Assembly (NCBI GenBank): GCA_002840165.1
Contig: PGZN01000013.1
Location: 1-64,000, forward strand
Length of the DNA: 64,000 nt
Origin: Firmicutes bacterium HGW-Firmicutes-8
GTDB taxonomy: Bacteria > Bacillota > Thermincolia > Thermincolales > UBA2595
Direction of reading: 5' to 3'
Shown: one piece after another, positions 9,226 through 61,124 of the stretch
Position numbering within the stretch: the first letter of the stretch is position 1
Layout: every line of letters starts with the position of its first letter
Notes under the pieces: generated by a model
The model's database searches: none
Told to the model about the DNA's origin: nothing
What the model saw: the letters and a program-made list of their open reading frames with translations, nothing else
Made by a program: the position numbers and the translations under genes

Positions 9226-10200
<975 letters not shown>

Positions 10201-31562: not shown

Positions 31563-32663
31563 TTATTCATCTCCAAATCCTATTCCCACAGCCTTGGCAG
31601 CAAAGACAATATCACTGTCCGGTGATACCGTTCGTAACACCTTAACGGCTTCCACGATAGGGACAGATTCAATATTTGTTCCATGGAGGCAGACCATGTA
31701 GCCAAATTTCCCCTCCATCAGAACCCTCACGGCATGGGCTCCATACCTCGTAGCAAGGAGCCGGTCAAACGGGGTAGGGCTCCCCCCTCTCTGCAGGTGG
31801 CCCAGTATCGTCACCCTTGTTTCCATCCCTGTACACTTCTCGATTTCATCACCGATCAAATTACCGACACCGCCCAGGCGAATCGGGTCGGCGCTGTCTT
31901 CAATAATCTTCTGGATAACCATTTCGCCACCGAGGGGTTTAGCCCCTTCAGCCACCACGACAATACTGAACTTTTTACCATTCAGTTTTCTATTGGTAAT
32001 CTTTCGGCATACATTCTCAAATATAAACGGTATTTCGGGAATTAAAATAACGTCAGCCCCTCCGGCAATTCCGGCATGGAGAGCAATCCAGCCCGCATAG
32101 CGTCCCATAACTTCCAACACCATGACCCGGTGGTGGGATTCGGCTGTGGTATGCAATTTATCAAGGGCCTCAGTAGCTGTTACGAGGGCTGTATCAAAAC
32201 CGAACGTAACATCTGTAGCAGACAGGTCATTATCAATCGTTTTAGGGACCCCTACTACCGGCAGGCCTTTTTGCCAGAATTCCCTGGCGATGCTAAGGCT
32301 GCCATCCCCACCGATTATCACGAGGGCATCGATCTGCATTTCTTCAAGGTTGCTCATAATGTGGTCTGACATATCGACATAAGCCCGCTCTCCGTCCTTC
32401 ATTATCGCATAGCGGAAAGGATTGTCCCTGTTGGTCGTCCCGAGTATAGTGCCCCCCCTCGGGAGAATTCCGGAAACCGAAGCCAGGTCCATCCTCTTGG
32501 CCATATTATTTATCAGGCCGCCAAACCCGTCAAGAAAACCGACAACTTCGAGATTGTACTTTTTGATTGCAGTCTTGACAACCGCCCTGATTACAGCATT
32601 CAAACCCGGGGCATCCCCTCCCCCGGTTAAAACCCCTATTCTTTTTATCTGCTTGTCAGCCAA
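31563..32663 (-). CDS. 6-phosphofructokinase, Lys-type (PPi or mixed-substrate clade)
   Basis: This is a second phosphofructokinase of 366 residues, longer than PfkA at 9226. It shares RIGVLTGGGDAPGLNAVIRA, IIGGDGSLSIA and EVMGRYAGWIALHAG. The phosphoryl-donor site reads VPKTIDND, with Lys where ATP-PFK has Gly, while GGDGS keeps Gly. This mix is found in the clade that includes PPi-dependent and long ATP-dependent enzymes. It may therefore run on pyrophosphate and work in both directions. The start is taken as TTG with AAAGGAGGG 6 bases upstream; an upstream ATG in frame has no ribosome site. Confidence 0.9.
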   Translation of the reverse strand: MADKQIKRIGVLTGGGDAPGLNAVIRAVVKTAIKKYNLEVVGFLDGFGGLINNMAKRMDLASVSGILPRGGTILGTTNRDNPFRYAIMKDGERAYVDMSDHIMSNLEEMQIDALVIIGGDGSLSIAREFWQKGLPVVGVPKTIDNDLSATDVTFGFDTALVTATEALDKLHTTAESHHRVMVLEVMGRYAGWIALHAGIAGGADVILIPEIPFIFENVCRKITNRKLNGKKFSIVVVAEGAKPLGGEMVIQKIIEDSADPIRLGGVGNLIGDEIEKCTGMETRVTILGHLQRGGSPTPFDRLLATRYGAHAVRVLMEGKFGYMVCLHGTNIESVPIVEAVKVLRTVSPDSDIVFAAKAVGIGFGDE

Positions 32664-32868
32664 AAAAAGCCCTCCTTTATAATTTTTAACCGTTAACTTC
32701 AATTAGACCGACTATTTTTACAAGTTTCGACATGGTGGCTTTTATTTCCTTCAGATGGGATTAACATAAAGCCAAATATCCGGTGAATTTACTGTTCCTT
32801 ACAAGGAATTAAGTAGATTCGTGTCGAAGAAAGCAAAATTCAAACTTCAATAATGAAAGGATGCCAAT

Positions 32869-42822: not shown

Positions 42823-44307
42823 TTACGCAATCCGATACATATGGGTATGTTTGCTGATAGCCGTATCATAAAGTTCCAGATATTCCGCACCAGACCTATT
42901 CCAGGAAAAGTCCTGATCCATAGCATTCGCCACAAGCCGGCGCCATGACTCCGGTTCTTCGGAATAGAGTCTGAGAGCCCGCCTGATTGTTTTCAGCATT
43001 GTCTGCGTATCATAGAGTTCAAATGAAAAACCGTTACCTGAGGAAGTAGCGGGATTATAGTCGGTGACCGTATCTGCCAGTCCACCGGTGGCCCTCACAA
43101 CCGGAATTGTGCCGTACCTGAGGCTGATAAGCTGGCCTAAACCACATGGTTCAAATTTCGAGGGCATTATAAACATGTCCGCACCGGCATAAATCCGCTG
43201 GGCCAATATCCCGTTAAACCCGAGGTACAGCCCCATCTTGTGCGGATAACGCTCTCTCAACCCGGCAAACATTTCCTCGTAGTATTTATCTCCGGAGCCC
43301 AAAACAACAAACTGCAGGTCCTCCTTCATAAGCTCATTAAAAGATTCAGAGATGAGGTGAAGGCCTTTTTGGTCAACCAGCCGCGAAATTAACCCTAACA
43401 CCGGTAAATCCCTGACCGGCAAATCCATTTCCTTTTGTAAACCAAACTTGTTTTCGTATTTATCCAGGATGCTCGATGAGTCGTAATTGCGGAATATCCG
43501 CGGATCTGTCCTGGGGTTAAACTCGTGGTAGTTTATGCCATTGACAATCCCATAGAGGTCCTGAGATCTCTTCCGCAGCAGGCCGTCAAAACCCTCCCCG
43601 TATTCAGGGGTTTGTATTTCCTGGGCATACCTTTTACTTACCGTGTTTATTACATCCGCGTATAGGAGACCGGCTTTAATAAAACTAATCTGGCCGTAAA
43701 ATTCTAAGCTGTCAGGCTTGTAATATTCGTTCCCCAGGCCCAGTAGGCCCAGGCAATCCTTGGGGTAATTACCTTGATACAGCAGGTTGTGAACAGTGAA
43801 AACAGTAGCCATCCGGCTGTAAAAAGGATCATTTCCGTACCTTTCCCGCAAAAGAAGTGGAATAGGACCGGACTGCCAATCGTTGCAGTGAATTATATCA
43901 GGTTGAAAATCAATCTTTTTGAGCATTTCCAGGATGGCCATACTGAAAAAGGCAAATCTCTCTGCCTCGTCACTGAAGCAGTACATTCCTTCCCGGTCAA
44001 AATAATGATAGTTATCAATAAAATAGACAGGGACCGGTTTTGTCCCCCCGGTTTCAGTCTTGGCTTCAATACTTGATTTTCTTACAACACAGGTTTCCGT
44101 ACGGTTTCCAACCTTGACAGGAAAATCAGTGACTGTTGTAACATCGCTAATCCCGCGGTACCTGGGCAGTACTATCCTCGTATCATTGCCCATTACTGTA
44201 AGCGCTTTAGGCAGCGATCCGGCTACATCGGCCAACCCGCCAGTTTTGGCAAAGGGTACAACCTCGGTGGATACTACCAGAATCTTTAAGTTCCGATCCA
44301 ACATCAT
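42823..44307 (-). CDS. glgA: glycogen (starch) synthase, copy 1
   Basis: GlgA extends alpha-1,4-glucan chains from ADP-glucose. The 494-residue protein has the substrate motif VVPFAKTGGLADVAGSLPKA, IHCNDWQSGPIPLLL, TVHNLLYQGNYP, ISRLVDQKGLHLI and SKFEPCGLGQLISLRYG. It is strongly similar along its length to the copy at 45423-46913. GGAGGTC lies before the start. No glgC or glgB is in the window. Gene debris separates the two copies. Confidence 0.95.
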   Translation of the reverse strand: MMLDRNLKILVVSTEVVPFAKTGGLADVAGSLPKALTVMGNDTRIVLPRYRGISDVTTVTDFPVKVGNRTETCVVRKSSIEAKTETGGTKPVPVYFIDNYHYFDREGMYCFSDEAERFAFFSMAILEMLKKIDFQPDIIHCNDWQSGPIPLLLRERYGNDPFYSRMATVFTVHNLLYQGNYPKDCLGLLGLGNEYYKPDSLEFYGQISFIKAGLLYADVINTVSKRYAQEIQTPEYGEGFDGLLRKRSQDLYGIVNGINYHEFNPRTDPRIFRNYDSSSILDKYENKFGLQKEMDLPVRDLPVLGLISRLVDQKGLHLISESFNELMKEDLQFVVLGSGDKYYEEMFAGLRERYPHKMGLYLGFNGILAQRIYAGADMFIMPSKFEPCGLGQLISLRYGTIPVVRATGGLADTVTDYNPATSSGNGFSFELYDTQTMLKTIRRALRLYSEEPESWRRLVANAMDQDFSWNRSGAEYLELYDTAISKHTHMYRIA

Positions 44308-45422: not shown

Positions 45423-46913
45423 TCAAGCCGTTTGAACATCTTCTTCTTCAGACTTTTTCCCCATCGCAGTATGGTATAACTCAACATATTCCTTGGCTGA
45501 ATTTGCCCAGGAGAAATCGGATTCCAAGGCCCTTTTGACCAAATCGGTCCAAAGGTCTTTTCTATCCCGGTAAACATAAAGGGCTCGTTCAATAGCATCA
45601 AGAAGCTTTTCAGCTACATATTCTTTGAAGACAAAACCATTGCCCCTCTTGGAGAAGGGGTCATAATTGCTTACCGTGTCAGCTAACCCGCCTGTCGCCC
45701 TGACTATAGGAATCGTCCCGTACCTGAGGCTGATCAGCTGGCCCAGACCGCAGGGTTCAAACCTGGACGGCATTAGAAACATATCACACCCTGCATAAAT
45801 CTGCTGGGCTAAAGCAGCATTGAACCCTATATATACACCAATTTTGTCCGGGTAATGTTTGTCCATGTCTTTAAAGAACCTCTCGTAGTACCTGTCACCT
45901 GATCCGAGTAAAACAAACTGGACATCTTTTGTCATTAAATCCTCAAAGATTTCCGCAATCAAGTCCAGGCCTTTTTGGTCAACCAAACGGGAAATCAGGC
46001 CGATAACGGGGACATCTCCGACTGGGAGATGCATTGTTTTCTGGAGAGCGTATTTGTTTTCTTTTTTATTTTCAACTGACTGGTGGTCGTAGTTTCTCAA
46101 AATACAGGAATCAGTCATCGGGTCAAAGTCACAGTAATGAATTCCGTTAACTATGCCGTAAAGGTCACGGGAACGCTTTCTTAAAATGCCATCCATCCGT
46201 TCACCGTACAGCGGGGTTTGGATTTCACGGGCGTAGGTTCTGCTTACAGTGTTGATGATGTCGGCATAAACAAGGCCGGCTTTCATAAAGCTGATGTCCC
46301 CGTAAAATTCCAGTTTATCCGGGTCGAAATAATCCTCTTTCAACCCTAGCAGTTCCAAGCAGTCCTTGGGGTAGTTTCCCTGGTAAAAAAGGTTGTGGAC
46401 TGTGTAAAGAGTAGCAATATCCTCGTAGAAAGGGATAATGCTGTACTGTTCTTTAAGAAGGACCGGAATAGGCCCGGTCTGCCAGTCATTACAGTGAATA
46501 ATATCAGGTTTGAAATCCAATCCGGGCAGCATTTCGATTACCGCGCGGCAGAAAAAGGCGAACCTCTCGACTTCATCGAAATAGCAGTACATATTATCGC
46601 GGTCGAAATACTGGTAGTTATCGATGAAATAGACCGGCACTTTTTTGTTGTTATCACCGTTAACATCAACATAACTTTCGCGAATAACGGCAGTTTCTTT
46701 CCGGCCGGAGATTGTAATCGGGAAATCAAACCTGGTTTCCATCTGATGGCTGATAAATTTGTACTTTGGCATTACTATTCTGACATCATGTCCCAACTCG
46801 GTCAGGGCTTGCGGCAGGGAACCGGCTACATCCGCGAGACCGCCCGTTTTAGCAAAAGGGGAAACCTCAGCAGATACGAAAAGAATTTTAAGCTGTTTCT
46901 CTTGATTCATCAT
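45423..46913 (-). CDS. glgA: glycogen (starch) synthase, copy 2
   Basis: This is a second ADP-glucose-dependent glucan synthase of 496 residues. It has VSPFAKTGGLADVAGSLPQA, IHCNDWQTGPIPVLLKEQY, TVHNLFYQGNYPKDCLELLG, ISRLVDQKGLDLI and SRFEPCGLGQLISLRYGTIP. The C-terminus ends with a charged tail (GKKSEEEDVQTA). It is 18 bases downstream of galT on the same strand, so the two form a sugar operon. The two copies are clearly tandem duplicates that have diverged. Confidence 0.95.
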   Translation of the reverse strand: MMNQEKQLKILFVSAEVSPFAKTGGLADVAGSLPQALTELGHDVRIVMPKYKFISHQMETRFDFPITISGRKETAVIRESYVDVNGDNNKKVPVYFIDNYQYFDRDNMYCYFDEVERFAFFCRAVIEMLPGLDFKPDIIHCNDWQTGPIPVLLKEQYSIIPFYEDIATLYTVHNLFYQGNYPKDCLELLGLKEDYFDPDKLEFYGDISFMKAGLVYADIINTVSRTYAREIQTPLYGERMDGILRKRSRDLYGIVNGIHYCDFDPMTDSCILRNYDHQSVENKKENKYALQKTMHLPVGDVPVIGLISRLVDQKGLDLIAEIFEDLMTKDVQFVLLGSGDRYYERFFKDMDKHYPDKIGVYIGFNAALAQQIYAGCDMFLMPSRFEPCGLGQLISLRYGTIPIVRATGGLADTVSNYDPFSKRGNGFVFKEYVAEKLLDAIERALYVYRDRKDLWTDLVKRALESDFSWANSAKEYVELYHTAMGKKSEEEDVQTA

Positions 46914-49809: not shown

Positions 49810-49998
49810 CTACTCTTCTTTGATGGCGGCTGTGGGGCACCCCTCTACCGCCTCATGGGCCAGCTGTTCCACACCCTGCGGGACATCATTGACCTTGGCA
49901 ATGGCCTTGTCATCGTCCCCCCACTCGAAAATATTCGGGCACAGGCTTATACACTCCCCACAGCTGATGCACAGGTCATCAAAAACTTCTACTTTCAT
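49810..49998 (-). CDS. 4Fe-4S single-cluster ferredoxin
   Basis: This is a 62-residue electron carrier. The cluster ligands are LCISCGECISLCP and the distal EGCPTAAI. The acidic surface (FEWGDDDKA) fits clostridial ferredoxins of the Bacillus/Thermotoga type. It lies directly downstream of the candidate selenoprotein gene on the same strand (spacing 47 bases), so the two may be co-transcribed and share a redox role. Confidence 0.92.
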   Translation of the reverse strand: MKVEVFDDLCISCGECISLCPNIFEWGDDDKAIAKVNDVPQGVEQLAHEAVEGCPTAAIKEE

Positions 49999-50045: not shown

Positions 50046-50612
50046 TTATGAGCCCCCGTCAGGTGAATTATTCAATTTATCACCTACATCACCGAGGAAC
50101 TTCCTAACTCCGGGAAAAATGATAACCTCAGTTACCGACTCTTTAAACTCGTCCGCCATCGATCGGTCAGAGCGGTATTCTACTTCAAACTGGTCTACAG
50201 CCGAATGAAACTTCACCCTCTCTGCTGACTCAAACCCTTCCAGGGTTTGCTGAACACGGTTGACTCAGCCGCCGCATAACAGCCCCTTAACCTGCAGTAT
50301 GGCCCTGCGTTGACCGGGGGCTGTTTCCACATCCGAGAAAACTGTGACGTCAGGGTTTACCCAAATATTCTTTAAGGCCGGCCCTCCTCCGGAAGAGCAG
50401 TCCTTGGCGATATCGGTATCATTGATACTCCTGGATGCTTCGTCAACCGCCCTACCTGCCGCTGCAAACGGTATACTGACGATATCCTCGGCTAAACAAA
50501 CAAGCTGCTTGGCATTTGTATTTTTTTCATCAACCAACCGGTTTACCGCTTTTAACGGAAGCAGGGCAAGGGATTGGGTCAGTTTGATGCCCTCTTTAAT
50601 AATATCCAGCAC
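50046..50612 (-). CDS. candidate selenoprotein: HMA-like domain with CGGU motif
   Basis: The frame runs 188 codons with a single in-frame UGA at codon 116 (50265-50267). Before it is QVKGLLCGG. After it comes VNRVQQTLEGFESAERVKF, then FEVEYRSDRSMADEFKE and VTEVIIFPGVRKFLGDVG. This is the beta-alpha-beta pattern of heavy-metal-associated (HMA/MerP-like) domains, in which the motif is GMxCxxC. The UGA takes the place of the second Cys, giving C113-G-G-U116. A SECIS-like hairpin follows (separate entry). The first ~90 residues (LPLKAVNRLVDEKNTNAK and later) form a helical region of unknown family. The GTG start has GAGGGGG upstream. The protein may bind or reduce a soft metal or persulfide. The alternatives are a nonsense mutation or a sequencing error. 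Confidence 0.75.
50231..50267 (-). promoter_or_regulatory. bacterial SECIS-like element
   Basis: On the minus strand the UGA at 50267-50265 is followed, after 22 bases, by an apical loop TGGAA (50242-50238) closed by a perfect 7-bp stem CAAACCC/GGGTTTG (50249-50243 and 50237-50231). Bacterial SECIS rules ask for a loop 16-37 nt from the UGA with a G in the first two loop bases. Both are met. Confidence 0.72.
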
Positions 50613-50787
50613 TTAAACCCCCTCACTATCAGAAGTGTATTTTCATTATTATTCCCCCGGCATTGGCTGTTATCCACTGCGGGCCGGTGGCAAAACGTGA
50701 AGAATTTGGACATGTTTTGAAAAAATATTCCATTAGGCACATAGCAGCGCCATTTCCAAGCCATACTATTGGACAGAACCAAACTCC

Positions 50788-52924: not shown

Positions 52925-54097
52925 ATGTTATATGATGTAGCTGTTATCGGGGCCGGTCCGGCGGGCTCAACTGCGGCCAAGTTCTGTGCCATGAGAGGTC
53001 TAAAAACCCTGCTGCTGGATAGGCAAATCTTCCCGAGACCTAAAACCTGCGGTGGAGGAATTACCTCTGCCGCTATAAACACGATCGGCTTTCCCTTGCC
53101 TGAACATACAGTGTTAAGCCAGGTCCACAAGCTTCGTTCAATTATTAACAACAAAACAGTCTCTATTCCTCATCCACGCCCCTTTATGGTAATAACCGAG
53201 AGGTCTGTATTTGATAATTTCCTGGTGGAAAAAGCCATTGAGGCCGGGACGGATTTCCAGCAGAACGAGAACGTCAAGGGTTTGACGAAGGAAGACCGTT
53301 ACTACACCATTAAGACACACCACAACAGCTTTAAGGCCAAAGCACTTATTGGCGCAGATGGTGTCTACTCCGCTGCAGCGAAGCTGGCCGGCTTAAACAG
53401 CCGGTATAAAAGCTGTGCCCTGTGCCTTACGACAGAAATACCGGCAAAATCCAATCACAGCCTGGACGAGATTCAAATAAATTATGACCTTCTACCGAAA
53501 GGTTACGGGTGGGTTTTCCCTAAGGGAGACCGGCTGACTCTGGGTGTGGGCTGTTTCGAGGGCAGCTACGGGATGCTCCGGAAAGCCCTGACCAAACTTG
53601 CGGTTACAACCCGGTCGGAAACTCCTGATATCGTTAAAGGCCATTACCTCCCCTATAGCGGACAGTCGCCGGAATGTGTCGGCGATGGGATAATCCTGGC
53701 CGGGGACGCGGCCGGATTTGTTGACCCTTTTACCGGGGAAGGTATCAGATATGCCATTATCTCAGGTATGATGGCAGGTGAAACTCTCTGGAACTGTTAC
53801 CGTAACGGCGTACCGCCAAATAAAAAAAACCTGGCCGGCTATCTTAATAAATGCCACCAAGGTTTCCTGAGGGATTTGAAATATAGTTATATGTTGGCCC
53901 GGACCTTTTTTGCCTTTCCATCAGTAATGCATCGTTTTTTATCGGAAAACCCCAAGATGTACAGCCACCTTTTAAACATCCTGGAAGGCCGGTACAGCTA
54001 TAAAAAGCTCATCAAAGACGTAGCTGTGGAACTGCCCAAATATTATCTCAACCTGCCAAAATACCAGTTTAGTAGGACCGGCCAAATTCGGGAGTAG
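52925..54097 (+). CDS. geranylgeranyl reductase family flavoprotein
   Basis: The 390-residue FAD enzyme has the dinucleotide fold YDVAVIGAGPAGSTAAKFCA, the family motif PRPKTCGGGITSAA, LIGADGVYSAAAKLAG and GDAAGFVDPFTGEGIRYAI. Members reduce isoprenoid double bonds in chlorophyll or archaeal lipids. In Firmicutes they are rare and may saturate quinone or polyprenol tails. It starts 170 bases from the polyprenyl synthase gene, divergent. The 3' end overlaps the convergent 4Fe-4S membrane protein gene by 29 bases. Confidence 0.88.
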   Translation: MLYDVAVIGAGPAGSTAAKFCAMRGLKTLLLDRQIFPRPKTCGGGITSAAINTIGFPLPEHTVLSQVHKLRSIINNKTVSIPHPRPFMVITERSVFDNFLVEKAIEAGTDFQQNENVKGLTKEDRYYTIKTHHNSFKAKALIGADGVYSAAAKLAGLNSRYKSCALCLTTEIPAKSNHSLDEIQINYDLLPKGYGWVFPKGDRLTLGVGCFEGSYGMLRKALTKLAVTTRSETPDIVKGHYLPYSGQSPECVGDGIILAGDAAGFVDPFTGEGIRYAIISGMMAGETLWNCYRNGVPPNKKNLAGYLNKCHQGFLRDLKYSYMLARTFFAFPSVMHRFLSENPKMYSHLLNILEGRYSYKKLIKDVAVELPKYYLNLPKYQFSRTGQIRE

Positions 54098-54854
54098 TAT
54101 CTGACTTATGACCCAAGCCGACTGTCAGGCAATTTTTCGGGCATGATTTGACACATTCTATGCACAGTATGCATTCCGGGTCGGATACCCGCTGGTTAGC
54201 GGAAATATAATTTAGGATCGGAACATCCATCGGGCATATTTCTTCACATTTGCGGCACCTGTTGCAATGGAGGTGGTTTTTTTCTATCTTGAGGATGCTC
54301 CGGGGGGAAGTAATTGTCATCAGAGCCCCGGCCGGACACAGATATTTGCAGAATGCCCTCCTGTCGCCAAGGACAAAGGCAAGCAGTATACCCAGTCCGT
54401 ATATGACAGCATTTTCTATCAGCAGCCATTTAAACTGGGCGCTTCGGCCTTGAAACGTGAAACCGGCGTAAATAAGCAGAAAAGGCAGAGCAAGGACAGC
54501 GGCCAGGACGACATATTTATACATGTAGTATTTTTCCGGAAGCAGTCTTTTGGGTTTTCGGACCGGTAAAAAATCAAATAGGGAGGCATTCCAGCACGCC
54601 CAGCCGCAAAAACAACGGCCGAACAGGAGAGGCCCAATAAACTTGGCAACAGCCACGTGAGCCACAGCCCCGGTAAATACCCCGGCCGAAAAATTGAACA
54701 CCACCTGGCTCAACTGGAGGTTAGCCCTCTGGTAAATAAAGTAATACACCCAGTAGAACAGCGTAAATAAGAACAGGAAGGCTAAACGGGTTGATACAAC
54801 CAGCTTCAATTTATAGACCAGTTTTCTGACCTGTCTTCCGACTGGTTTTTTCAT
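54069..54854 (-). CDS. NapH/YccM-like membrane 4Fe-4S protein
   Basis: The 261-residue protein has four to five membrane helices and two ferredoxin-type clusters at the C-terminus (CNRCRKCEEICPMDVPI and CILCIECVKSCPKNCLT). The membrane part has GRCFCGWACW and RAFCKYLCPAG, the paired motifs of NapH-type quinol/ferredoxin oxidoreductase subunits. The first is degenerate: Trp-Asn replaces the usual Pro-x-Gly. It may pass electrons to the geranylgeranyl reductase next to it. The start at 54854 has AGAAGAAGG upstream. Confidence 0.82.
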   Translation of the reverse strand: MKKPVGRQVRKLVYKLKLVVSTRLAFLFLFTLFYWVYYFIYQRANLQLSQVVFNFSAGVFTGAVAHVAVAKFIGPLLFGRCFCGWACWNASLFDFLPVRKPKRLLPEKYYMYKYVVLAAVLALPFLLIYAGFTFQGRSAQFKWLLIENAVIYGLGILLAFVLGDRRAFCKYLCPAGALMTITSPRSILKIEKNHLHCNRCRKCEEICPMDVPILNYISANQRVSDPECILCIECVKSCPKNCLTVGLGHKSDTTPEFGRSY

Positions 54855-55005
54855 GCCACAACCTTCTTCTTTATTTTGATAGAGCAAATATTCGAGGTTG
54901 GGCTCGGCTTTCCCTTTAAGTTTTTTCTATTTATGTATCGTTAGTAACCATCGGAAGCCATCTCTTATACAATGTATTACGAACATTTGTGAGGAGTTGG
55001 TTTTT

Positions 55006-58981: not shown

Positions 58982-59791
58982 CTAAGAAAGTTCTCCCTGA
59001 ATGACCAATTTCACAATATGGTCATCAATGATTCTTTTGCCATTCTGATAACCATAGAGCAGGCAGTGGGTGCAAAGCTTGTTTATGAGTCTGGCTGAGC
59101 CACTGGAATACTGGAAAACCACATCCAGGGCACTATCAGAGAAAATATCATGTTCAGCGCCGGCGTAGCTCAAATGGCGGCTGACATAGGCTCCGACCTG
59201 AGCACGATCCAGATTCTGAAGCTTGCACTGCAGATCGATTCTCTGCCGTATAGCGGCATATGACTGCAGTTGTAACCGTTCCCAGAGTTCATTCTGACCA
59301 ACCAGAATGAGTGCCATCGGACTTTGGGCATCCATTTTGAAATTAAGTAGAAACCGGATTTCTTCAAGCATTTCCCGGTCCAGCAGATGGGCTTCATCCA
59401 CAATTACCACCGGCTCCAGCCGGTGAATGCCCTTCATAAGCTCGATCTCTCGATGTAGTTGCCGTTTGGCATCTCCCCGGTAGAACCTGGACTCACAACC
59501 CAGTTGCTCCAATAGCCCCTTGTAGAAATGCCGGGGGGTAAGCTTGGAATCAGCCAGGTACAGGACCATGTATTTGCCCGGATCCAGCATATCTTTGAGG
59601 CGGCGGATGGTAGTTGTTTTACCGGTGCCGCATTCTCCCGTCACAACGGCAAACAGTTGACGCTCCGCTGCATAGCTTAGTCTGCCGAGGGTTTCTTCAA
59701 CCATGACACTGTTGTACAGTTCCGCGGTGGGAATATTCCGGGCAAAAGGGGTCCTGGTGAGGCCATAAAAGGTTTCATACATTCTTCTCAC
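58982..59791 (-). CDS. ExeA/TniB-like transposition ATPase
   Basis: The 269-residue AAA+ ATPase has Walker A VVTGECGTGKTTTIRRL, Walker B PVVIVDEAHLLDREML, sensor LILVGQNELWERL and the Arg-finger region (AAIRQRIDLQCKLQNL). ATPases of this type assist DDE transposases in target selection. The N-terminal opening (YETFYGLTRTPFARNIP) is typical of the ExeA family. The start overlaps the transposase stop by 17 bases; an ATG three codons later is also possible. Confidence 0.9.
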   Translation of the reverse strand: MRRMYETFYGLTRTPFARNIPTAELYNSVMVEETLGRLSYAAERQLFAVVTGECGTGKTTTIRRLKDMLDPGKYMVLYLADSKLTPRHFYKGLLEQLGCESRFYRGDAKRQLHREIELMKGIHRLEPVVIVDEAHLLDREMLEEIRFLLNFKMDAQSPMALILVGQNELWERLQLQSYAAIRQRIDLQCKLQNLDRAQVGAYVSRHLSYAGAEHDIFSDSALDVVFQYSSGSARLINKLCTHCLLYGYQNGKRIIDDHIVKLVIQGELS

Positions 59792-61124
59792 CAGCCTTTC
59801 CCACGTTTCTGTAGCTCACAGCGGGAAGCTGACGAGTTCTGCGTTCACCATGCTGTTTGGCTGCACCCTGCAGCAGTCTTGAAGACTCTGCCTTTTTGGG
59901 TGCAAGATGTTCAGGCCGCCTTGGGCCGGTACGGTCCCCTATTACCAACTCGCGGGCCTGCCAGGGAGTATGACCTGGGTACTCAATAGTTAACTCGCTG
60001 GTATCGGCCGGGTCATAAATTACCTCCACTTTACAGCCGATGAAGGAAACACCGACTTCATATTTTCTTCCTTCGAAACTGATACAGCCGGCTTTGTCCA
60101 CCTTGCGATCTTCACAGTGGAGAAAGGTGTTTGCCACTACCTCATGCTCAATATATTTTAAGGCTTTACTGTCACTGCGGTAGGCCGTTTCAGGACTCAT
60201 ATTGTTTGTGAGTGCCGAGTGGGGTTTATGCTGGTAGCACTCCTCCAGCCAAACCCAGAACAGAGTGTTGAGTGCATCTAAGGTTTGGGGCTTTTCCAGG
60301 GCGACTTCACTCAGGAAGGAATCAACCACCCTGTTAAAGCGTTCCACTTTCCCTTTAGACTCTGGAGAGTAAGGTTTAGCGTAAAGCAGTCTGATTCCCA
60401 TTTTGGCACAGGCTCTGTTCATCCAGCGGGTTCGGTACTGTTTGCCGTTATCAAAGAAAACTGTTTCCGGGACGGCATATTTCTGAATAGCCTGCCTGAA
60501 TGCATCTTCGATGATAACCTGGTCCAGGGTAGGATAAAACTGTCCATGGAGTACAAATCGGGTGGCATCATCGATGAATACCACCAGGAATACTTGCTTT
60601 GTGGCTCCATCAGGACCAATAGGCAGATAAGGGCCATATTTAATGTCAGAATGCCATAACTGGTTCCGGTATCTATGCTGATATCTCCGGGCTGCTATGC
60701 CACCACCGGCATACATTTTCATATGTCTGGTACTGTAACCAAGGGCAACAAGTTTTTCCTGCAGGGTACTGCGCTTCAACTGCCCCGGAGCAACCAGGCT
60801 TTCCCACTCTAGGATACGGATAATCTGCGAGACGCTTCGACTGGGGACTTCCCGCCGTAGCAGAACCGCCTGTTCCATTACATTTTCCGGGATGGCAGAA
60901 GGACTGTTCTTTGCTCCCTTACCCTTGGGTCTTAGTCCGTCGAAGCCCTGTTTACGGTACTGCTCCAGATATCGGCGCACCGTCCGTTCCGAGATGCCAT
61001 ATTGCTTACAGATTTGTATTTTGGCTTCTCTGATTTTTCCTGCATCCATGCCTGCGGTCAGTATGGGAGCTAACATCTGCACCCGCTCTGCGGCAATCTC
61101 ATCTGCCTTTTTGTGATCTTTCAT
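59775..61124 (-). CDS. DDE transposase (Mu/IS481-like, TniA-type)
   Basis: The 449-residue transposase starts with a helix-turn-helix (CKQYGISERTVRRYLEQYRK) and a second helical DNA-binding region. The RNase-H core has the first Asp in LWHSDIKYGPYLP, the second in ETVFFDNGKQYR and the Glu in SPESKGKVERFNRVVDSFL. A C-terminal beta domain follows (GCISFEGRKYEVGVSFIGCK). The triad is complete, so it may be active. AAGGAGGAC lies 7 bases before the ATG. It overlaps the upstream DUF6431 gene by 26 bases. Confidence 0.92.
   Translation of the reverse strand: MKDHKKADEIAAERVQMLAPILTAGMDAGKIREAKIQICKQYGISERTVRRYLEQYRKQGFDGLRPKGKGAKNSPSAIPENVMEQAVLLRREVPSRSVSQIIRILEWESLVAPGQLKRSTLQEKLVALGYSTRHMKMYAGGGIAARRYQHRYRNQLWHSDIKYGPYLPIGPDGATKQVFLVVFIDDATRFVLHGQFYPTLDQVIIEDAFRQAIQKYAVPETVFFDNGKQYRTRWMNRACAKMGIRLLYAKPYSPESKGKVERFNRVVDSFLSEVALEKPQTLDALNTLFWVWLEECYQHKPHSALTNNMSPETAYRSDSKALKYIEHEVVANTFLHCEDRKVDKAGCISFEGRKYEVGVSFIGCKVEVIYDPADTSELTIEYPGHTPWQARELVIGDRTGPRRPEHLAPKKAESSRLLQGAAKQHGERRTRQLPAVSYRNVGKAGEKNV

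Follow-up and report, generated by a model that had tools for sequence, protein, structure and literature searches.

The locus lies on the minus strand of the 64,000-nucleotide stretch of DNA analysed here (the window) and comprises a gene for a protein with a heavy-metal-associated (HMA)-like domain, which we call Sec-HMA, followed directly by a ferredoxin gene (Table 1). The Sec-HMA frame begins with a GTG codon at 50612-50610, runs for 188 codons to a TAA and contains exactly one in-frame TGA, at codon 116, as the earlier note had described for an otherwise open frame of this length. With the TGA read as selenocysteine (Sec, U), the surrounding motif is GLLCGGUVNRV. The run past the TGA stays open for 72 codons, compared with 0-52 codons after the ordinary TGA stops of the window.

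Table 1. Features of the Sec-HMA locus, with positions in the window
Feature	Position	Strand	Evidence
Sec-HMA protein gene, 188 aa plus TAA, GTG start	50046..50612	-	family-wide co-linear homologues
In-frame TGA, predicted selenocysteine U116 of GLLCGGUV	50265..50267	-	TGA at this place in 17/17 homologues found
Cys113, invariant partner of Sec (CGGU)	50274..50276	-	invariant in homologue alignment
Ribosome-binding-like site AGGGGG, 5 nt 5' of GTG	50618..50623	-	read directly from sequence
Predicted SECIS hairpin CAAACCC-UGGAA-GGGUUUG, 22 nt after UGA	50231..50249	-	covariation, fold, bSECIS criteria, reduced synonymous divergence
HMA-like ferredoxin-fold domain, residues 88-164, with extra N-terminal strand (predicted)	50121..50351	-	AlphaFold2, Foldseek, HMM against PDB
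N-terminal helical domain, helices 2-26 and 32-63 (predicted), without Pfam family	50424..50609	-	only in f1 and G011
[4Fe-4S] ferredoxin (Fer4_13, 62 aa), directly downstream, probably co-transcribed	49810..49998	-	directly follows Sec-HMA gene in 8 f1 genomes and G009
Membrane 4Fe-4S polyferredoxin (Fer4_5)	54069..54887	-	not adjacent in window; directly upstream of Sec-HMA gene in G003, G004, G005

Conservation and decoding of the UGA

Profile searches of 399 sampled genomes of the phylum gave homologues in 16 genomes, all with TGA, and a second search of the same genomes with a broader profile added one more, G119, likewise with TGA. Homologues that all end before the UGA would have told against the earlier note; instead each of the 17, which include the gene of the window's own genome and represent eight families of the phylum, runs on beyond the UGA and keeps it. 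Within the family of the window's genome (f1), the gene occurs in eight of nine genomes, the window's own included, with TGA at the same place in each, and the other f1 homologues are 52-67% identical to the window protein. A TAG also reported in the homologue of G008 is the terminal stop of that gene. The only stop-free matches of the broader search were HMA domains within much longer frames (834-973 aa), which most likely encode P-type ATPases. A search for homologues in plasmids returned no match, and a profile scan of contigs gave one locus, on the same contig as G002.

Cysteine forms exist for almost all selenoproteins, and their absence here counts as a point against the selenoprotein reading. 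None of the 17 homologues from the 399 phylum genomes carries Cys or another sense codon at the UGA site, and small class-level searches likewise returned no Cys form of the family; this lack is informative, because a Cys form would score at least as well. The relatives with Cys in place of the UGA that the earlier note asked for have counterparts at the level of the superfamily, where paralogous HMA domains have Cys at the equivalent site, and none was found within the family in the 399 genomes. Its reading of the motif as the usual change from CxxC to CxxU applies to most members (CGGU, CDAU, CGLU and CFLU), but in four the motif is one residue longer, CxxxU (CYTLU, CYSVU and CYSLU). Apart from those of f1 and G011, the members have only about 100-115 aa and no domain besides the HMA-like one. 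The most divergent member is that of G119 (L097, TGA at 1633), with CFLU followed by Ser rather than Val and UGAAG in place of UGAGU; its gene lies directly 3' of a FixX-type ferredoxin gene that itself ends in TGA.

Selection on the gene is alike on the two sides of the UGA. Across the eight f1 members, mean pN/pS is 0.36 before the UGA and 0.32 after it, and the 72 downstream codons therefore form an in-frame coding sequence. In 12 of 16 members the UGA is followed by GTC, GTA or GTT. Translation does not usually start at these codons, and reinitiation right after the UGA is therefore excluded as the general explanation. A real stop at this position, leaving a 115-residue protein and a second gene or dead remnant downstream, would agree with the use of UGA as an ordinary stop in this genome, where TGA ends 9 of the 41 genes of the window. 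However, purifying selection acts alike on the codons beyond it, whose frame is conserved in all members, and a stop here would cut the AlphaFold2-predicted HMA fold at the start of its first helix. We consider such a stop highly improbable; the like selection and the non-start codons led us to reject both a true stop with a second gene and readthrough.

Downstream of the UGA lies the hairpin listed in Table 1, which the earlier note had placed at the right distance, with 7 bp and the loop TGGAA, and which may alternatively be drawn with 8 bp and a GGA triloop. A gap-free alignment of 48 nt from the UGA in 16 sequences was used to examine it. Columns 19-25 and 31-37 are paired in 85.7% of cells, against 75.8% in shuffles, with changes on both sides (compensatory) at six of the seven pairs, and the covariation score was reached by none of 500 shuffles. 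In slid-control helices the share of paired cells fell to 59% or less, and RNAalifold, unprompted, recovered the same stem. Synonymous divergence is 0.42 in the hairpin codons, compared with 0.73 elsewhere, and ranks with the lowest values along the gene; this conservation is partly protein-driven, because the hairpin lies within conserved codons (LEGF). A second stretch of low synonymous divergence, at codons about +64 to +73 after the UGA, falls at the gene end near the stop and may be a small-sample effect or a downstream ribosome-binding region.

The published bSECIS model calls for a loop of 3-9 nt, a stem of 4-16 bp, a G in the first two loop positions, a distance of 16-37 nt from the UGA and an MFE of at most -7.5 (PMC13188914). 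The Sec-HMA hairpin, with a stem of 7-8 bp, a loop of UGGAA or GGA, a distance of 22-23 nt and -8.9 kcal/mol, lies within these limits, and a GGA-loop hairpin also occurs in selD of the same genome, 17 nt after its own UGA.

The machinery named in the earlier note, selA, selB, selC and selD, is all present in the window's own genome (G000). We found selB on contig C29 (371.7 bits, cut-off 242), tRNA-Sec on C33 (74.1 bits; called SeC with anticodon tca by ARAGORN) and selA on C85 (636.6 bits), adjoined by selD (395.7 bits), which has one TGA in the gene. Shortly downstream of selB is a gene for a formate dehydrogenase alpha subunit (FdhA; L018, 12563-15619 on C29), with a UGA of its own in ...HQARIUHSS, and a YedF/SirA-like gene lies between the two. 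Both selA and selD scored over cut-off in 15 of the 16 homologue genomes tested, the exception being G007, which is 75% complete. A tRNA-Sec match stronger than 1e-10 was found in 16 of the 17 homologue genomes, G007 again being the one without, against roughly two thirds of all 399 by hand count; we attach no probability to this co-occurrence, because related genomes are not independent.

That the UGA is read as some other amino acid, by a reassigned code or simple readthrough, has nothing in its favour beyond the open frame itself. A full Sec system and a covarying SECIS hairpin speak against it, and TGA ends ordinary genes of the window, so that the genetic code is not reassigned; we rejected code reassignment on this ground and regard the reading as a whole as extremely unlikely. 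As judged from sequence comparison, Sec-HMA very likely encodes a genuine selenoprotein with UGA-116 read as selenocysteine, and decoding would proceed by the usual bacterial machinery of SelB, tRNA-Sec and a SECIS hairpin just 3' of the UGA.

Fold and relatives of the Sec-HMA domain

The earlier note had held that the 72 codons after the UGA are not random and continue an HMA-like fold, with the UGA at the second Cys of the metal motif, and both points are borne out. With Cys put for Sec, the Pfam HMA model (PF00403) matched residues 106-150, across the TGA, at an E-value of 6.9e-5 and a score of 23.6 bits, just below the gathering score of 24.8, and the homologues are co-linear on both sides. 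The family profile matched copper-ATPase HMA domains of the PDB with E-values down to 2.7e-18, its CggC, which is the CGGU site, sitting on the CxxC of these targets; the UGA aligns to the second Cys of CxxC in canonical HMA, CopZ and CopA domains.

By AlphaFold2, run on a 16-row alignment, residues 88-164 are predicted to form a confident domain (pLDDT 79-96 over most of it) in the order strand, strand, helix, strand, strand, helix. A further helix comes after it, and Sec116 sits where helix 1 begins. Foldseek placed this model with MerP (TMt 0.78, rmsd 1.7), Ccc2a, CopZ and PacS over 58-63 columns, at TMt 0.70-0.78 for MerP, CopZ and Ccc2a; RNA polymerase L/K subunits, which had the top E-value, are uninformative because their rmsd is above 6. 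The model thus has a ferredoxin-like fold and a CxxC-type loop, with Sec for the second Cys and a different last strand. The N-terminal part is modelled as two long helices with moderate confidence. No hydrophobic stretch of transmembrane strength occurs in these helices (maximum 19-residue mean 1.34). They may have an anchoring role. Assignment of the domain as HMA-like is strongly supported by its sequence.

Relative to the HMA domains of CopZ, MerP and the N-terminus of CopA, with which it shares a beta-alpha-beta-beta-alpha core and a G-[LM]-x-C-x-x-[CU] loop, the Sec-HMA domain has an extra N-terminal strand and, in place of the terminal strand, a predicted helix with conserved R and L; the members of families f1 and f4 add the N-terminal helices. 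The NCBIfam model that matched most members (15 of 16, best E-value 5.8e-10) is NF041115, UxxU_metal_bind, a 'putative mercuric reductase' family whose small HMA-type domain likewise carries Sec in its metal motif. Its motif contains two Sec residues, however, whereas all 17 Sec-HMA members have one, in Cxx(x)U, and its 74 positions lack the upstream strand, the C-terminal helix and the N-terminal helical domain. The window protein scored 25.7 bits, far below the NF041115 cut-off of 95 bits, and we rejected membership on this score.

Two further kinds of selenoprotein invite comparison. Sec is listed for a (2Fe-2S)-binding CopZ-type domain (cd10141), in the form GxUC or CU (PMC13188914, Table 1); these copper-chaperone-related proteins are likewise tied to an Fe-S cluster, but in Sec-HMA it is the HMA motif that contains the Sec, and a separate gene encodes the Fe-S protein. 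The MerT-like (C/SxxU) and E1-E2 ATPase (UxxC) selenoproteins, also predicted to handle metals with Sec, are membrane transporters, whereas Sec-HMA is a small soluble HMA protein. The 2026 inventory of 119 prokaryotic selenoprotein families and subfamilies includes the UxxU (NF041115), MerT-like and ATPase entries, and a CxxU HMA family is absent from its Table 1 (PMC13188914); targeted searches of the literature also turned up no account of a CxxU selenoprotein of the HMA type, though unpublished annotations may exist. Judged against this inventory, Sec-HMA looks like a new selenoprotein family, one that adds to a kind already known from UxxU. Genes of this kind are likely annotated as two truncated ORFs or overlooked.

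Gene neighbourhood and candidate function

The ferredoxin gene that the earlier note had seen directly downstream is present, and ferredoxins recur beside Sec-HMA elsewhere. A [4Fe-4S] ferredoxin gene lies 3' of Sec-HMA in all eight f1 genomes with the gene and in G009, of another family, and a FixX-type ferredoxin gene lies just upstream in G118 and G119, of two further families, preceded in G118 by a FixC/ETF-QO-like gene. Ferredoxin genes of two different kinds thus adjoin Sec-HMA in four families (f1, f2, f34 and f35), and were not found adjacent in f39, f66, f76 or f4. The gene comparisons point strongly to ferredoxin as a recurrent neighbour, a link far stronger than a single window could reveal.

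The genes that flank Sec-HMA in f39 and f66 instead encode two small glycine-rich proteins and lie within about 0.6 kb of it (L075, L076, L079 and L077). One is about 71 aa with GLTFGSLFGLNLGYAMD and the other 101-112 aa with GSSTGTLIGRFIGAGSE; they matched no Pfam family and give no clue to function. A link to mer, cop or P-type ATPase genes was dropped, since none was recognised among the neighbours examined by sequence reading and selected Pfam scans. Elsewhere in the window we observed a pair of similar glycogen-synthase (GlgA)-like genes lying near each other on one strand (42823-44307 and 45423-46913), two 6-phosphofructokinase-like paralogues (9226-10188 and 31563-32702), and an integrase-core transposase with an adjacent ExeA-like ATPase, resembling a mobile element (58982-61124).

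The product would be a cytoplasmic HMA-fold protein with Cys-x-x-Sec at the site of the metal-holding CxxC of copper chaperones and MerP. The Cys/Sec pair most likely binds a soft metal, a metalloid, or a sulfur or selenium species, and the ferredoxin of the neighbouring gene probably keeps the pair, or its bound cargo, reduced. From its sequence and neighbours, Sec-HMA may accordingly be described in general terms as a ferredoxin-linked Cys/Sec protein acting either on soft metals or in selenol/thiol redox chemistry.

Of these two functions, that of a soft-metal chaperone is a serious possibility, if somewhat short of an even chance. The Cys/Sec pair would hold Cu(I), Hg(II), Ag(I), Cd(II) or a metalloid in the manner of the CxxC of CopZ and MerP, and Sec would make binding tighter or exchange faster. 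The HMA fold and the position of the motif suggest such a role, as do the nearest NCBIfam models, which are CopZ, MerP and the UxxU metal-binding selenoprotein. On the other hand, the motif spacing varies between CxxU and CxxxU, the usual C-terminal HMA strand is replaced by a predicted helix, and no metal transporter or metal regulator was seen beside the gene among the neighbours examined.

Alternatively, and here we are more hesitant, a Cys-Sec selenenylsulfide could reduce sulfur, selenium or peroxide species with the adjacent ferredoxin as electron donor, a role consistent with the two kinds of ferredoxin gene adjoining Sec-HMA in four families. HMA domains are classically metal-transfer rather than redox domains, however, and Sec-HMA has no fused catalytic partner enzyme. 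In favour of redox chemistry, this is also the role presumed for most CxxU selenoproteins (PMC13188914).

Sec-HMA adds a selenoprotein family with predicted Sec in every sampled member, built on a fold whose classical use is to move copper and mercury rather than redox chemistry. What may surprise specialists is the strict lack of Cys forms, together with the pairing with ferredoxin. With this family one can ask by experiment why a metal site should use Sec in place of Cys, and whether Sec-HMA is driven by ferredoxin. We tentatively speculate, with rather less than even confidence, that it is an obligately Sec-dependent branch of HMA proteins without reversion to Cys, in which the selenol would serve as a direct ligand for a soft metal or for selenium or sulfur and would be served by a dedicated ferredoxin. 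If true, Sec-HMA and its ferredoxin would form a previously undescribed ferredoxin-coupled module for metal or chalcogen handling in anaerobes.
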